A program made the position numbers and the translations under genes. The notes under the pieces were generated by a model. That model saw only the letters and a program-made list of their open reading frames with translations. It was not told the origin of the DNA and ran no database searches. This document shows, piece after piece, positions 10,083 through 56,513 of a stretch of DNA of 64,000 bases. The stretch comes from Phocaeicola oris (lineage in GTDB: Bacteria > Bacteroidota > Bacteroidia > Bacteroidales > Bacteroidaceae). How positions within the stretch are numbered: the first letter of the stretch is position 1; each line of letters opens with the position of its first letter. The DNA lies in contig NZ_JAJLQX010000013.1 in NCBI RefSeq assembly GCF_021295095.1, forward strand, positions 1 through 64,000. Direction: 5' to 3'.

Positions 10083-11516
10083 ATGATAAATAACTATTTA
10101 ACTACGCAAATTAAAGGATTTTTTCATTATAAACCAACTATAGAGCAGGAAAATACAATTAATTTTTTGTCTGAGTTCTTGGTTGACCGACGTGGAAATA
10201 CCGTGTTCGTTCTGAAAGGGTATGCAGGGACAGGGAAAACCTCCCTCATCGGGGCTCTGGTGAAGACACTCGATGCCTTGAAACAAAAGACAATCTTGCT
10301 GGCCCCTACGGGGAGAGCCGCGAAAGTCTTTTCGCGTTATTCTGAACATACGGCCTTTACTATCCATAAACGTATTTATAGACAGAAAAGTTTTTCGAAT
10401 GAGATGACCAATTTCTTACTCGATAATAATCTGAATCGGCACACCTTGTTTATCGTGGATGAGGCTTCCATGATTTCGAACAGAGGGCTTTCGGGCTCAG
10501 TTTTTGGAACAGGCCGGTTGCTTGACGATTTGATTCATTATGTTTATAGCGGGGAAGGTTGTCGTTTGCTTCTTATTGGTGATACTGCTCAGTTGCCTCC
10601 GGTAGGAGAAAAAGATAGCCCGGCGCTTTCTGTCAGTGTATTAGAAGGATACGGGCTGAAAGTTTATCTGTCGAAGCTGACGGAGGTAGTCCGTCAGTCG
10701 CAAGAATCGGGTATCTTATATAACGCGACTGTGCTCAGGCAAAATTTAACTAATCAGGACTTTTCAAGATTCCCGGAAATTAGAATACGGAATTTTCCGG
10801 ACATTCAGATTATTAATGGCAGTGACTTGATAGAGAAGATAAACAACTGCTATGATGAGGTGGGCATAGGCGAAACCATGATAGTAACGCGTTCTAATAA
10901 ACGGGCGAATATATATAATAACGGGATACGCGGTACCATTCTTTTTCGGACTGATGAGTTGAACTCAGGAGATTTGTTGATGATTGCGAAAAATAATTAC
11001 TTTTGGGCAGAAAAGATGAAAGAGTTGGATTTCATAGCCAACGGAGATATTGCTGTGGTTAAACGCGTACGTCGTGAGCAGGAACTATATGGGTTTCGCT
11101 TCTGTGACGTATTGCTCTCATTCCCCGATTTTAATGATTTGGAAATAGAGGTGAAACTTCTGCTTGATACATTACAAACCGAGGCTCCGGCACTCACCGG
11201 AGAGGAAAATGATAAGTTGTTCTATTCAGTGCTTGAGGATTATGCTGACATTCCGCGAAAAGCGGAACGTATGAAAAAAATGAAAGCCGACCCGTTTTAT
11301 AATGCTCTTCAGGTTAAGTATGCGTATGCGGTAACTTGCCATAAGGCGCAAGGCGGGCAGTGGAAACGTGTATTCCTTGACCAAGGGTATGTAACTGATG
11401 AGATGCTTGGACCGGATTATTTCCGCTGGATATATACTGCGTTTACTCGTGCTACAGAAACACTTTATCTGGTTAATTGGCCAAAAGAGCAGATTGAGAA
11501 TGAGAATTTAAAATAA
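10083..11516 (+). CDS. Superfamily 1B DNA helicase, RecD/Pif1-like
   Basis: A 477-residue ATP-dependent DNA helicase. Walker A is GYAGTGKTS (about residues 45-53) and Walker B is FIVDEASMI (about 122-130). A Q/T-rich block is LLLIGDTAQLPPVG. The C-terminal helicase motifs are TCHKAQGGQW and YTAFTRATETLYLV. This is the compact RecD2/Pif1-like form (AAA_30 plus UvrD_C_2) without the long N-terminal domain of RecD2, and no RecBC partners are nearby. Its role is probably DNA repair or processing of 5' ends. It is a single-gene unit between divergent neighbours. Confidence 0.85.
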   Translation: MINNYLTTQIKGFFHYKPTIEQENTINFLSEFLVDRRGNTVFVLKGYAGTGKTSLIGALVKTLDALKQKTILLAPTGRAAKVFSRYSEHTAFTIHKRIYRQKSFSNEMTNFLLDNNLNRHTLFIVDEASMISNRGLSGSVFGTGRLLDDLIHYVYSGEGCRLLLIGDTAQLPPVGEKDSPALSVSVLEGYGLKVYLSKLTEVVRQSQESGILYNATVLRQNLTNQDFSRFPEIRIRNFPDIQIINGSDLIEKINNCYDEVGIGETMIVTRSNKRANIYNNGIRGTILFRTDELNSGDLLMIAKNNYFWAEKMKELDFIANGDIAVVKRVRREQELYGFRFCDVLLSFPDFNDLEIEVKLLLDTLQTEAPALTGEENDKLFYSVLEDYADIPRKAERMKKMKADPFYNALQVKYAYAVTCHKAQGGQWKRVFLDQGYVTDEMLGPDYFRWIYTAFTRATETLYLVNWPKEQIENENLK

Positions 11517-11580
11517 TTACTTGATTAATTTATTGATTTATAATGACGAATTGCCTGAATCTACAGATAACTTAGGTGTA

Positions 11581-11658
11581 CCACGCATGTGAGCCATGTG
11601 TACTACGCACGTGAACCACGTGTACCACGCACGTGAATCACATGTATCACGCACGTGA
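11581..11658. repeat. Tandem 22-bp dyad array, 4 units
   Basis: Four units at exact 22-bp spacing begin at 11581, 11603, 11625 and 11647. Each core has the form YYACGCAYGTGA, and the last is a perfect TCAC-GCAC-GTGA dyad. A 10-bp linker containing CACGTG or CATGTG separates cores. The array lies between the convergent ends of the helicase gene and alaS, about 65 bp after the helicase stop. It shares the TCAY-N4-RTGA-N10 plan with four other arrays in this window although the base sequence differs. Confidence 0.85.
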
Positions 11659-11699
11659 TGCACTTATTTATAAATAAAAAATGAAATGATTCTTTATAA

Positions 11700-11728
11700 A
11701 AAAGGTGGACTTATTAGGGCCACCTTTT
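11700..11728. terminator. Bidirectional terminator between helicase gene and alaS
   Basis: AAAAGGTGG (11700-11708) pairs perfectly with CCACCTTTT (11720-11728) around an 11-nt loop. A/T runs on both flanks make it suitable for both convergent genes. Confidence 0.85.
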
Positions 11729-11807
11729 ACTTGTTTTCTTTATCTTATTTATGAGATAACAAAGCTCGTTATTCGGGATGTTGTTTTAACCCGGCCGGTA
11801 AAGATAA

Positions 11808-14435
11808 TTACTGTATTGATAAGTTAGCCAATTCCAGCACTTTATCTACAGCAACACTCAGTCCGTCAACGTTCTTGCCTCCGGCAGTCGCGAAGTGAGG
11901 CTGACCACCTCCGCCACCTTGTATCAATTTAGCGGCTTCGCGTACTATCTGACCGGCATTCAGTCCATCTTTAACCAAGTCATCGCTGATCATAACGGTC
12001 AGCATAGGGCGGTTGTTCTCTATACTGCCGATGACGACGAACAAATTGGAAGGAATTTGTCCTTTCAGTTGGAAAGCGATGTCTTTAGCCGAGGCAGCAG
12101 GAATAGGAAGGACGGAACTGATGACTTTTACACCGTTTATATCTTTAGCGTTGCTAATCAGTTTTTCTTTGACCTGAGCGACTTTTTCTTTTATAAAGGT
12201 TTCAACTTCTTTCTTTAACTCACTGTTTTCATCCATATACTTTTTGATGGTTCCGATTAAATCAGGAGCATTGTTGAAAAGTTCTTTTAAATCGGTCAGG
12301 GTACATTGAATATTGTCCATCAGTTCTTCTACTTTTTCGCCCGTGATAGCTTCTATGCGGCGAATGCCGGCAGCGACAGAACTTTCGCTGATGACGCGAA
12401 CCATACCGATTTTTCCGGTAGCTGATACGTGTGTACCACCGCAAAACTCAACAGACGGGCCGAACTTGACTACACGAACCTCATCGCCGTATTTCTCACC
12501 GAACAAGGCGATGGCGCCAAGTTTCTTAGCCTCTTCGATAGGCATGTTACGATACTCGTTCAATGGGATATTTTTGCGAATCATAGCGTTAGCTATATGT
12601 TCAATCTGGCGAAGTTGTTCGTCCGTAACTTTTTGGAAATGAGAGAAATCGAAGCGGAGACCATCAGGACTGACCAAAGATCCCTTCTGTTCGACATGAT
12701 TACCAAGAACTTGACGCAAGGCATAGTCGAGCAAGTGCGTACAGGAGTGATTGGCTTCGCATGCCTCACGTTTTTGCTTGTCAACAGACGCGATAAATTT
12801 AGCTTCCGGATGAGTAGGCAACTTCTTGGTGATATGTATCGGCAAGTTGTTTTCTTTTTTCGTATCAATAACTTCAATAACTTCATCACCACATTTCAAT
12901 ACACCGGTATCACCAACCTGCCCACCCATTTCGGCATAGAACGGAGTCTCTTTCAGCACAATCTGATAAAGTGTCTGTTTCTTCTGAGTAACTTGACGGT
13001 ATCGAAGAATAGTTGTCAAACATTCGGTATTATCATAACCGATAAATTCCGTTTGTCCGTCTTCTATATTAACCCAATCTCCGGTTTCTATAGCAGCTGC
13101 GTTACGGGCACGCTGTTTCTGCTTTTCCATTTCGGCATTGAACTCATTTTCGTTCACAGTCATTCCATTCTCACGGAGAATCAGTTCAGTCAAATCAAGA
13201 GGGAATCCGAATGTATCGTAAAGAGTAAATGCGTCTACACCGCTAATTTCTGTTTTTCCGTTCGCTTTTGTATCATCTATTGTCTTCTCTAATAAATGAA
13301 TACCGGTATCAAGTGTACGGAGAAAAGCCTCCTCTTCTTCCTTGATTACTTTCTCAATCAGCACTTCCTGTGCTTTTAGTTCAGGATAAGCCTCTCCCAT
13401 GTTGGCGATCAGCGTTGGGATTAGTTTATATAAGAATGCTTGCTTCTGATTCAGGAATGTATACGCATAGCGGATAGCACGGCGAAGAATACGGCGGATA
13501 ACGTATCCGCCTTTTGCGTTGCCGGGTAATTGTCCGTCGGTGATAGAGAACGCAAGTGTACGGATGTGGTCGGCAACGACACGCATAGCAACGTCCACTT
13601 TCTCGTCAACCCCGTATTTTAGTTCGGATAATTCGCCAATTGCCTGAATCAAAGGCTGGAAGATGTCAGTATCATAATTGGAATGTTTGCCTTGAAGCAT
13701 ACGGACCAAGCGCTCAAATCCCATGCCTGTATCAATTACATGCATAGGGAGCGGTTCCAAACTGCCGTCAGCCTTACGGTTGAACTGCATAAATACTATA
13801 TTCCATATTTCAATTACCTGAGGATTGTCTTTGTTAACCATCTTGTTTCCCGGAATTAGAGCTTTTTCTTCCGGAGTACGTTCATCAATATGAATCTCAG
13901 AGCAAGGACCACATGGACCGGTATCCCCCATTTCCCAAAAGTTATCGTGCTTGTTTCCATTAATGATATGATCATTAGGGAGATGTTTTGCCCAATATTC
14001 GGCAGCCTCATCATCACGTGAAATTCCTTCGGAGGGTGAGCCTTCGAATACGGTAACATATAAATCTTTCGGGTCAAGACGCAGAACGTCAACGAGATAT
14101 TCCCAGGCAAAGTCGATGGCGCCTTCCTTGAAATAGTCACCGAAACTCCAATTGCCGAGCATCTCGAACATGGTATGGTGATAAGTATCGTGGCCAACCT
14201 CTTCCAAGTCATTATGTTTACCACTTACTCGGAGACATTTCTGAGAGTCCGCCACTCTTTTATATTTTGCAGGGTGATTGCCAAGGATGATGTCTTTCCA
14301 CTGATTCATACCTGCGTTAGTAAACATAAGGGTTGGGTCATCTTTAATGACCATTGGCGCAGAAGGAACAATTTCATGCCCCTTTGACCGATAAAAATTC
14401 TTAAACGATTCTCTAATTTCGTTAGCTGTCATCAT
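11808..14435 (-). CDS. alaS: Alanine--tRNA ligase
   Basis: Charges tRNA-Ala in the cytoplasm. The full-length 875-residue class II enzyme shows the N-terminal catalytic core ([15 protein letters not shown]), motif [15 protein letters not shown], the editing-domain zinc ligands HSCTHLL and CGGTH, and the C-terminal C-Ala domain with Gly-rich [18 protein letters not shown]. Two ATG codons occur in a row; the second (14432) is an equally good start. The promoter is divergent from the MerR-type gene. No defect is seen. Confidence 0.97.
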
Positions 14436-26441: not shown

Positions 26442-26570
26442 CTCGCTTTTCTTTGTTCTACGAAAAATAGTGTCAGAAAACAGATTTTTTTTTTATTTTT
26501 TAGAGTTTTACTGTTTTAAAAACAAAACGAGAGGAGAAAAGTTTTTGATAATTTCCTTTTGTAACTTAAC

Positions 26571-26830
26571 GAGAATTCGATGAAAAACAGAGAGGTTATG
26601 CAAGATGTACGAAGGTAGAATACGGTCTTATAGCGTGTTGGTGAGGTGTTTTTTCCTTTTTGTTTGATTCATTAATATTGTCATAAAGAGATGGAGGAAA
26701 AGTCATACGTATGAACTGATCAACTCATGCGGATGAATCATCCAATTCATGCGGATGACTTGCCAAACTCATACGTATCAGTTGAGTAATTCATACGCAT
26801 GAACTAAGTAACTCATACATATCACTTTGT
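26571..26830 (+). repeat. Dispersed TIR element, copy A (right part missing)
   Basis: The left end reads GAGAATTCGATGAAA, followed by about 110 bp that match copies at 32102-31751 (inverted) and 44939-45306. The matching stretch includes GAAGGTAGAATA, TTTTTGTTT and GGAGGAAAAGTCAT. A 22-bp array (26703-26829) follows. After ACATATCACTTTG the similarity stops, and the right half with the second terminal repeat is absent. The ISAon1 relic begins about 80 bp later, so an insertion or deletion tied to it probably removed the right end. No protein is encoded. Confidence 0.75.
26703..26829. repeat. Tandem 22-bp dyad array, 6 units (copy A)
   Basis: Units begin at 26703, 26725, 26747, 26769, 26791 and 26813. 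Cores are TCAT-ACGT-ATGA (a perfect 12-bp palindrome), TCAT-GCGG-ATGA twice, then TCAT-ACGT-ATCA, TCAT-ACGC-ATGA and TCAT-ACAT-ATCA. Ten-bp linkers vary. The arms are conserved and the loop centres vary, as expected if the dyad rather than the exact sequence is under selection. Confidence 0.85.
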
Positions 26831-26897
26831 CGGATAGTCTTTATTGGTTCACCCGATATTTCATGAGGGGATATGTGCTTCAATAAAATATATTATT

Positions 26898-26905
26898 TAC
26901 TTTTG
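26898..26905 (+). promoter_or_regulatory. -7 box of the ISAon1-type ORF
   Basis: TACTTTTG ends 4 bp before the ATG at 26910, a spacing that would give a nearly leaderless transcript. The same 4-bp spacing occurs at 46398 and 63288. Confidence 0.5.
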
Positions 26906-26909
26906 TCGC

Positions 26910-27323
26910 ATGGAAGACAATGGTTTGATAATGTTAGCCCGTATCGTGCTGCCGAAAGAAATGTTGGACAATTTCCTCATAACAGATATTGAGTATGTTG
27001 ATACAAAATTGAAGTATGATGAGCCGGAGATGCACATTCGTCTTGATGAGAAGATTCATCCCTCGCTTCAGGGAAACTCCCACTTTGAGTCCAAGGGTTT
27101 CATAGCTCCAGTCAAGGTGACAGACTTCCCGATCCGGGGCCATAAGGTATTGCTGATTATTCGGCGTCGCAAATGGTTAGACACCCGTACAGGAAAGAGT
27201 TTTATACTTCCCTACAGTTTGGTGGCAGAAGGTACCCGCTACTCGAAGGAGTTCGCGACTTTTTTAAAAGATACGAATGGAGAAGTCCCCAGTGACCTGC
27301 GCAAGCAGATGGAGGATGCCTGA
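26910..27323 (+). CDS. ISAon1-type transposase N-terminal region protein (relic)
   Basis: A 137-residue protein resembling the 'ISAon1 family transposase N-terminal region' found widely in Bacteroides and Prevotella. It shows the segment DIEYVDTKLKYDEPEMHIRLDE (seen at about 27-48) followed by a basic stretch with IIRRRKWLDTRTGKSF. In intact elements a separate second ORF encodes the DDE catalytic part. Here that part is only a short fragment right after the stop, so the element is almost certainly dead. The ATG at 26910 is chosen over the upstream ATG at 26844 because of the -7 box. It is the left border of the accessory island. Confidence 0.7.
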   Translation: MEDNGLIMLARIVLPKEMLDNFLITDIEYVDTKLKYDEPEMHIRLDEKIHPSLQGNSHFESKGFIAPVKVTDFPIRGHKVLLIIRRRKWLDTRTGKSFILPYSLVAEGTRYSKEFATFLKDTNGEVPSDLRKQMEDA

Positions 27324-31743: not shown

Positions 31744-31750
31744 TGTACAT

Positions 31751-32102
31751 GAGTCCGATGAATCTAAAATAATACGAACTATGTATCTTTACTTCTTAAA
31801 CGGAGATACTGCTTTTAGAAAATATCAATTATATAAGCTACTGCTCCGATGCGTACGAAGATGAAAAGTGATACGTATGAGTTGATCGATTCATGCGGAT
31901 GAGTTGGTTAACTGATGCGGATGAGTTGACAAGTTCATGCGGATGAGTTGACCGATTCATACGGCTCACTTTTACCGGTCATCTTGATGATAAATTTAAT
32001 GAATCTGACGAAAAGGGAAAAACATCGTTTAAACATTCCATAAAGACGTATTCTTCTTTCGTAGGTTTCTGCATGACCTTTCGGTTATTTCATCGAGCTC
32101 TC
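31751..32102 (-). repeat. Dispersed TIR element, copy B (complete, inverted)
   Basis: Read on the minus strand it begins GAGAGCTCGATGAAATAAC at 32102 and ends TTTTAGATTCATCGGACTC at 31751. The two ends form an imperfect terminal inverted repeat GAGYYCGATGAA. The 22-bp array is at 31869-31972 and the order of blocks matches copy C: left flank with AAGAATACG, array, TAGCTTATAT, TTTAAGAAG, GTTCGTATTATTTTAG. It is about 352 bp, has no ORF and sits directly behind the DUF1080 gene. Looks like a non-autonomous (MITE-like) element. Confidence 0.75.
31869..31972. repeat. Tandem 22-bp dyad array, 5 units (copy B)
   Basis: Units at 31869, 31891, 31913, 31935 and 31957, read on the plus strand as TGATACGTATGA, TCATGCGGATGA, TGATGCGGATGA, TCATGCGGATGA and TCATACGGCTCA. 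The linkers are GTTGATCGAT, GTTGGTTAAC, GTTGACAAGT and GTTGACCGAT, more alike here than in copies A and C. The period is exactly 22 bp. Confidence 0.85.
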
Positions 32103-32134
32103 GTTAATATAAAGCTTAATATCAAAAAATTAAA

Positions 32135-44848: not shown

Positions 44849-44938
44849 AAAGCAGTTAAAGTAATTAAAAACAAAATATTACATTATCTAATCAAGATAT
44901 TTTATATAACTAATTCAATATTAATATATAAATAACGT

Positions 44939-45306
44939 AAATTCGATGAAATAACAGAGAAGTCATACAGATTCCCATGAAGGTAGAATATGGTCTTGTA
45001 GTATGTTGACAAGGTGTTTTTCCCTTTTTGTTTGGTTCATTAAAATGGTCATAAAGACGCGGAGGAAAAGTCATGCGGATGAATCAACCAACTCATGCGG
45101 ATGAATCGTCCAATTCATACGGATGACTTGTCAAACTCATACGCATCAGTTGAGCAACTCATACGCATCAGTTGAGCAACTCATACGCATCACTTTTTAT
45201 CTTCATACGCATCAGGATAATAGCTTATATTGTTGATATTAACGGTGTATCCTTTTAAGAAGAAACAATGATACAGAGTTCGTATTATTTTAGATTCGTC
45301 GAACTC
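44939..45306 (+). repeat. Dispersed TIR element, copy C (complete)
   Basis: Begins AAATTCGATGAAATAAC (44939) and ends TTTTAGATTCGTCGAACTC (45306), giving an imperfect terminal inverted repeat RARTTCGAYGAA. Inside, in order: a flank with GAAGGTAGAATATGG and GGAGGAAAAGTCAT, a 22-bp array (45071-45218), TAGCTTATAT, TTTTAAGAAG and GTTCGTATTATTTTAG. About 368 bp, without an ORF, between the hcp promoter and the 3' end of the transcarbamylase gene. Confidence 0.75.
45071..45218. repeat. Tandem 22-bp dyad array, 7 units (copy C)
   Basis: Units begin at 45071, 45093, 45115, 45137, 45159, 45181 and 45203. Cores run from TCAT-GCGG-ATGA through TCAT-ACGG-ATGA to TCAT-ACGC-ATCA. Units four and five are identical over all 22 bp, which suggests recent duplication. 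This is the longest of the five arrays. Confidence 0.85.
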
Positions 45307-45371
45307 ACCTTAAACATATAAAAAACAGACTATTCATATAAATATATCAGATTATATACCGGCTTTACATC

Positions 45372-56391: not shown

Positions 56392-56513
56392 TCACATTAG
56401 TGAGACGATTGTTTCACATTAGTGAGACGATTGTTTCACATTAGTGAGACGACTGTTTCACATTAGTGAGACGACTGTTTCACATCAGTGAGACGATCGG
56501 TTCATCAGTATGA
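56392..56513. repeat. Tandem 22-bp dyad array, 6 units
   Basis: Units begin at 56392, 56414, 56436, 56458, 56480 and 56502. The first five cores are TCAC-ATTA-GTGA (or TCAC-ATCA-GTGA) with linkers GACGATTGTT or GACGACTGTT; the last is TCAT-CAGT-ATGA. The whole repeat can fold as GTTTCAC-N4-GTGAGAC stems. It lies in the 570-bp gap between the phosphatase gene and the hydroxyproline operon, about 370 bp before pruA. No TIR element was seen around it. Confidence 0.9.

Follow-up and report, generated by a model that had tools for sequence, protein, structure and literature searches.

Tandem arrays of a 22-bp dyad in Phocaeicola oris: the core of a dispersed MITE and a putative protein-binding platform in Bacteroidales

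Background

The closest known systems to the arrays described here are the BrickBuilt elements and MITE239 of P. gingivalis, the BOX elements of streptococci, whose boxB module is about 45 bp long, and PINSR of Prevotella intermedia. In BLASTn searches, BrickBuilt was reported to be confined to P. gingivalis; homologues are given for P. gulae, and the tail has weak BLASTx matches in two Prevotella (PMC4596501). Moreover, 22-nt tandem repeats are mentioned for P. gingivalis W83 in the same group of papers (PMC4596501, PMC5771137, PMC7335449). PINSR copies number 177 in one strain and 184 in another, and the repeat is stated to be without terminal inverted repeats (TIRs) (PMC4755523). Among the insertion sequences (IS) of the order, ISPg3 is now named IS195 and is assigned to the IS982 family in one report (PMC7335449) and to IS5 in another (PMC4596501). 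A duplication of 8 bp is given for IS195 (PMC7335449), and one of 7 bp for the relatives ISPi1, like ISPg3 (PMC4755523), and IS1187 (PMC7335449).

The window analysed here is the whole stretch of 64,000 nucleotides of Phocaeicola oris shown above, from a genome of 2.98 Mb in 50 contigs. It holds five tandem arrays of short dyads, and the exact 22-bp unit spacing reported for them in an initial annotation was confirmed in all five (Table 1). The annotation knew of no such family. This stands for the dyad core itself, of which no prior description was found in the literature searched, where most subscription journals are not covered; however, P. gingivalis has close analogues in BrickBuilt and the PgRS MITEs (PMC4596501).

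Results and discussion

Structure and abundance of the arrays in the Phocaeicola oris genome

The units had been described as TCAY/RTGA dyads, which is true of all six units at 56392 but of only 4/6 at 26703, 3/6 at 31869, 3 of 7 at 45071 and one at 11577. The mixture of both arm types claimed for array 56392 is present. In array 31869 the border unit reads TGAT...ATGA and one other unit ends in CTCA, and the units following the three perfect ones at 45071 read TCAT...ATCA. The sole perfect TCAC-N4-GTGA unit of array 11577 lies at 11647, and its remaining units have the form CCAC/CTAC...GTGA. This array resembles another of the same genome (L126:7445) in unit and left border. The type, GTGTACCACG...CACGTGAACC, is preceded by a left border, TTAGGTGTACCACG, common to L126:7380-7640 and positions 11480-11760 of the window, and may therefore be a second dispersed element. 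A search of the window against Rfam returned no match over the arrays at the gathering threshold, a tRNA being the sole match.

Table 1. Arrays and MITE copies in the window, with positions counted from its first nucleotide
Feature	Positions	Strand	Basis or remarks
22-bp dyad array, TCAT/ATGA type, 6 units, 4 perfect	26703..26824	+	sequence
22-bp dyad array in MITE, TCAT/ATGA type, 6 units, 3 perfect	31869..31990	+	sequence
22-bp dyad array in MITE, 7 units, 3 perfect	45071..45214	+	sequence
22-bp dyad array, five TCAC/GTGA units and one TCAT/ATGA unit	56392..56513	+	MITE border: none detected
Third array type, unit GTGTACCACGCACGTGAACCAC, one perfect TCAC-N4-GTGA	11577..11658	+	MITE border: none
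MITE left half, TIR ACGAGAATTCGATGAA up to the array	26569..26702	+	TIR 26567-26584, 1 mismatch; profile Lf 4e-32, Rf 3e-11; training copy
Whole MITE copy, 358 bp	31747..32104	-	TIRs with 2 mismatches each; no exact target duplication; training copy
Whole MITE copy, 376 bp	44935..45310	+	TIRs with 1 mismatch each; no exact target duplication; training copy

When one mismatch is tolerated, the two-unit core is matched at 652 sites of the whole genome and the reversed pattern at 0. Within a sample of 455 kb, consisting of the window and 20 further stretches, a motif-based detector found 32 arrays, 188 units in all, at period 22 and none at any of the 19 other periods between 14 and 33. The motif-blind program TRF (period of at least 10, at least 2.5 copies) assigned period 22 to 37 of its 44 rows, some of which overlap; a perfect dyad is present in 34 of these 37 rows and relaxed versions are present in the remaining three. 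On these counts (no reversed matches, no other period populated, 37/44 TRF rows at period 22), a chance or compositional origin was rejected. With the unit phase picked by the motif, the mean difference between units of the same array, over 34 TRF-defined arrays, was 0.042 over the eight positions of the arms, against 0.206 in the centres and 0.234 in the linkers, which makes the arms about five times less variable than centres and linkers within arrays of this genome.

According to a home-made codon-score gene caller, which provided the gene calls in all genomes, the 32 sampled arrays are intergenic, with no overlap of more than 30 bp with any called gene; the flanking genes are in tandem in 16 cases, convergent in 7 and divergent in 6, with 3 left unassigned. 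Array 11577, which is outside the 32, sits between ORFs 10083-11516 and 11808-14435. A coding origin was rejected because the arrays lie outside the called genes. The neighbours of the window arrays are ordinary: a RecD2-like helicase and an alanyl-tRNA synthetase; RsfS-FtsH and part of an ISAon1-family transposase; a 3-keto-disaccharide hydrolase-domain protein and a GH20 protein; a prismane protein and a carbamoyltransferase; and a histidine phosphatase and an aldehyde dehydrogenase.

Several statements of the initial annotation are borne out by these data: a scan of the whole genome separates the pattern from its reversed control, and period 22 alone is populated in the 455-kb sample; the arms are kept while centres and linkers drift, and the opposite outcome it had named, arms drifting as fast as centres, was not seen; and the arrays lie between genes, as far as a crude caller can place them.

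An IS982-type MITE carries many of the arrays

Three of the window arrays (26703, 31869 and 45071) sit in copies of a MITE 358-448 bp in length, the ends of which are inverted repeats, ACGTGARTTCGAYGAA, and which contains no transposase gene. Border profiles built from 12 copies matched 26 of 37 sampled arrays, including all 12 training copies and 14 of the 25 arrays not used in training, and also matched 5 places without a nearby array. By similarity alone, 22 of the 32 arrays have at least one flank that recurs elsewhere in the sample, and 18 were aligned. The arrays had been presented as separate loci, a view at odds with these 26 arrays with the borders of one dispersed MITE, 12 of them being training copies.

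An exact 7-bp target duplication flanks three of the five copies with perfect TIRs, and the other two have one mismatch in it; exact duplications were absent from all four of the other TIR pairs, which have mismatches and include one without any dyad between them (L122:3616). Four young copies with ends that are 98-100% identical contain four units (404 bp), five units (425 and 426 bp) and six units (448 bp). Near-identical copies of the MITE hence differ by whole 22-bp units, presumably through slippage or recombination. The annotation had argued against chance slippage; a chance origin was indeed rejected above, but changes by whole units between near-identical copies do occur.

For array 26703, the right flank gave no other similarity matches in the sample, and an ORF at 26844-27323, right beside the array where the right half of the MITE belongs, matches the ISAon1 N-terminal family (NF049916, 5e-32). 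The right half of this copy appears to be curtailed near the start of that transposase ORF. A composite of 648 bp at L121:1195-1842 consists of the MITE left half and an array beside an IS transposase fragment, with perfect TIRs and with flanking 7-mers that are equal bar one mismatch.

The first ~35 bases of the right end of the MITE match a resident multicopy IS with few differences, and the similarity past this point is weak (56/105 identities versus at most 53 in shuffles). Twelve contig ends are located 106-127 bp inside a MITE-type TIR, as expected of a multicopy IS that breaks the assembly, and this cognate IS is seen solely as ends and N-terminal fragments. The N-terminal fragment of 71 residues alone matched no Pfam or IS family; a full-length relative in the same genome (L196) belongs to the IS982 family (NF033520, 3e-65). 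The carriers in this genome are thus short, lack a transposase, duplicate their target and have TIRs in common with a resident IS, as MITEs do, and they may have been mobilised in trans by an IS982 transposase. The MITE flank was found in one of 61 genomes of the genus, that of the window itself.

The TIRs, the target duplications, the relation to IS982 and the length changes by whole units are what would be expected of a purely selfish MITE with an internal minisatellite, similar to BrickBuilt, whose arms would be alike through recency or through pairing and recombination and which would have neither a host function nor a binder. This explanation has to be weighed against the arrays of other species.

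The same core in unrelated flanks of other Bacteroidales

The three-unit pattern was found in 15/61 genomes of the genus, 6/247 of an order sample and 3/394 of a phylum sample, the window's own genome being included in each. Any host function would therefore be dispensable, as 46 of the 61 Phocaeicola genomes have no three-unit array. In a viral collection the four-unit pattern matched a single contig, and phage carriage was rejected on this basis. Among the matches listed, 98 of the 101 four-unit stretches of named genomes bear Bacteroidota names, the three other titles being Xanthobacteraceae, Verrucomicrobia and Clostridia MAGs; these named loci were picked by perfect arms and four units, and hence their arm conservation and unit number are imposed.

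Among the same listed matches, a TIR of the MITE (at most three mismatches, within 450 bp) was found at 0 of the 105 arrays of loci L016-L120, and 50 of the 105 have flanks similar to those of another array of the set. Parabacteroides and UBA1189 have dispersed elements of their own, with flanks that differ from those of the MITE. The distribution of the 22-bp core thus exceeds that of the MITE, since other Bacteroidales have it within flanks of unrelated sequence. As to gene neighbourhoods, array pairs between five genomes included nine with one homologous neighbour in common and none with both, and 119 neighbours from four genomes matched 194 Pfam families, none of which had more than three members. 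A single regulon, or autoregulation, was rejected, given that there was no recurrent neighbour family and no pair with both neighbours homologous.

Several other repeats of this period were observed. In Prevotella micans and related loci (L236-L244), the array flanks likewise repeat every 22 bp, using different unit words placed to either side of the TCAT core, and a perfect dyad array of 17 units is present in a member of the Marinilabiliaceae (G074, L067:5101-5464). The reversed control pattern is missing from nearly all genomes, yet it has 11 matches in G074 and, in Hoylesella enoeca (G077, L085), 10 matches versus 6 for the pattern proper. A general preference for 22 bp outside the arrays was rejected for other genomes, where 3 of 40 TRF rows had period 22 and 6 of 40 had period 21; one of the three, L041:7342-7424, is an array built on another palindrome, CTGCCAA-N4-TTGGCAG, with 4 further bp in each unit. 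In a set of 20 stretches from 10 genomes, chosen as motif-less relatives, no period-22 TRF row with another core was detected; several of these stretches are short, three come from the array-bearing G043 and one from the array-bearing G060.

Unit grammar, invariant arms and the number four

A motif-free scan revealed a fuller plan in some arrays, namely a 7-bp arm, 4 bp, a second 7-bp arm and 4 bp, in which half-sites alternate every 11 bp. Runs of four alternating dyads with this geometry (arm 7, spacer 4) numbered 9 in the sample of the window's genome and 37 in other loci, the latter preselected by the TCAY core, and all have that core. None occurred in block shuffles, of which there was one per sequence and geometry, and none was found for seven other geometries. 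The outer bases vary by species: TTnTCAC-N4-GTGAnAA in G043, TCACTnnAGTGA in G010 and TTaTCAC...GTGATAA in G017.

G043 is a Phocaeicola relative with a genome that is 81% complete. When three arm mismatches were allowed there, 32 matches were obtained, comprising 27 perfect four-dyad arrays, four register-shifted matches to these arrays and one three-unit array, and not a single array with one to three arm mismatches in register; when fetched loci are included there are 29 arrays, 27 of four dyads and 2 of three. The centres show no shared descent between copies, with an identity of 0.492 against a null of 0.490-0.498 from shuffled unit order, and the AA/TT that adjoins the arms in the linkers, which is no part of the search motif, is 98-100% conserved. 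The arrays end in TTARGYTT, and more than 12 bp out the flanks of 14 copies yielded one marginal similarity of 22 bp. Each array is a compact element of ~100 bp, at a median distance of 67 bp from gene 3' ends.

Exactly four dyads are present in 27/29 arrays of G043, 16/17 of G061, 7/7 of G017 and 8/8 of G010, counting those distinct fetched arrays in which three or more perfect dyads follow one another, so that the minimum of three is set by selection. Identical arrays were removed ahead of these unit-number counts and likewise ahead of the G043-centre, per-genome and other-lineage pairing and strand counts. The copies of G061 have centres and flanks in common and are therefore not independent; their four dyads may reflect recent copying. 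In the window's genome and in UBA1189, the number varies from 3 to 6 perfect units.

A purely selfish origin would agree with the patchy distribution (15/61 genomes of the genus, 6/247 of the order sample) and with the finding that array loci are not common between species. It fits poorly with arms in G043 that are perfect around scrambled centres, with no copies bearing one to three arm errors, with the recurrence of four dyads in several species and with a core in unrelated flanks, where the TIR of the MITE was met at 0/105 other arrays among the matches listed. On balance, we regard it as rather unlikely to be the whole explanation.

Folding and base pairing

Folding of 16 chosen array sequences gave z values of -3.0 to -11.0, with no shuffle equally stable. 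This would suit a hairpin of RNA, or a cruciform, in which transcribed arrays form a long stem that acts as a bidirectional terminator or RNA stabiliser at gene ends; however, strong folding is expected by construction, since a palindromic array folds on either strand. The position of the arrays lends this idea some support in two relatives, where convergent gene pairs are enriched (15/28 versus 2/29 in G043, against a small background of 29 pairs, and 8/16 versus 1/24 in G061), but there is no such enrichment in G017 (0/7), in G010 (1/7), in the sample of the window's genome (4/18 versus 21/180, p 0.18) or in the pooled named loci (14/74 versus 34/233, among the matches listed), and 6 of 28 arrays in G043 lie between divergent genes.

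The evidence from base pairing is similarly divided. Of the five symmetric pair classes in the window's genome, three pair more often than expected (0.59 vs 0.46, 0.77 vs 0.65 and 0.47 vs 0.29) and two less often; wobble pairs there are biased towards one strand (284 vs 249 expected, sd 6), but the sequences are paralogues. Against this, none of the five classes covaries above expectation in G043, G061, G017, G010 or UBA1189, where symmetric positions are often anti-complementary and near-invariant classes are uninformative, and the strand bias is weak in other lineages (431 vs 417, sd 7.5). A covariation signal in the pooled genomes was discarded as evidence of pairing, as per-genome tests attributed it largely to differences between genomes. 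Mirror pairing across the array is weak in the linkers (p 0.003) and not significant in the centres; a long hairpin with mirrored centres was rejected on the latter result, together with a mirror value in G043 lower than the non-mirror one. We consider the hairpin improbable as the basis of these arrays. As the variable positions of the relatives do not covary, sequence-specific recognition of DNA is favoured over folding, although the strong folding and the weak linker pairing leave room for a structural role.

A REP/BIME-like element, mobilised by a Y1 (RAYT) transposase through its recognition of small hairpins, would likewise be short, intergenic, palindromic and multi-copy, and the proximity to gene 3' ends in G043 would be in keeping with it. 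The carrier in the window's genome, however, has TIRs and duplicates its target in the manner of a DDE-type IS, and this origin seems very improbable. The title of one report names GTAG/CGTC tags of REPs (PMC3733652).

A putative binding platform

We give about even chances to the reading that the arrays are tandem binding platforms for a putative, probably dimeric, DNA-binding protein of Bacteroidales. Each half-site would consist of RTGA and a few species-specific bases and would recur every 11 bp in alternating orientation, which would place a dyad every 22 bp. Mostly, the platform would comprise four dyads between genes in those relatives that were examined closely, forming in G043 the compact element described above. 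In the window's genome, it would be the core of the IS982-type MITE, which has carried it to many loci and in which dyads are gained or lost in whole units. No binding protein was found, and no family recurs among the neighbours, at most 3 of the 119 matching any one Pfam family.

The initial annotation had left the choice between a binding and a folding platform open. Putative binding fits the relatives best, given the 27 perfect and 0 decayed arrays with scrambled centres in G043, and folding is disfavoured by the lack of covariation in five relatives. Its equation of 22 bp with two helical turns is approximately right and not exact, because B-DNA has 10.5 bp per turn.

More tentatively, the platform may be order-specific and chromosome-wide, with four dyads of TCAY/RTGA half-sites bound by a putative oligomerising protein whose outer-base specificity drifts between species, with selection at the level of the host, which would presumably benefit, and with repeated capture by, or exchange between, unrelated mobile elements. 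If the arms are bound, Bacteroidales would carry an undescribed DNA-organising or silencing protein, for which the arrays offer a ready bait that is simple to synthesise. Should the arrays be purely selfish, a mechanism would still be needed for the invariant arms and scrambled centres of G043 and for its number of four dyads. In either case, the arrays provide length markers that change by whole units and describe a repeat class in gut genomes.

Comparison with known elements

BrickBuilt is similar to the MITE described here in being intergenic, in its arrangement of leader, tandem minisatellite and tail with a variable number of units, in the existence of copies without leader or tail, in having conserved and variable unit positions, and in its predicted long stem-loops (PMC4596501). 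The two differ in unit length and TIR, the features by which, rather than by unit sequence, they were compared: the BrickBuilt unit has 23 nt and its TIR, GAGACCTTTGCA, is most like those of ISPg1/ISPg9 (PMC4596501), whereas the unit here has 22 bp and the TIR is ACGTGARTTCGAYGAA. The left TIR of MITE239, ACGTGAGTTCGATATAAAGGAA, begins like that of our MITE (PMC4596501), and an internal 22-bp dyad array is not part of the description of MITE239 in the papers concerned (PMC4596501, PMC5771137, PMC7335449).

MITECca01 of Cardinium is also non-autonomous, derived from IS982 and amplified in one lineage; it differs in its length of ~240 bp, and the word "tandem" is absent from the main text of the paper (PMC9769881). 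PINSR, compared by its description, is likewise an intergenic, dispersed and lineage-restricted repeat of Bacteroidales, with a length of 188 bp that sets it apart (PMC4755523). BOX belongs to another phylum and its boxB is not a 22-bp dyad, but its end modules surround a variable number of tandem boxB modules, and in S. suis one boxB type occurs in elements with different ends, as the dyad core does here (PMC3049150).
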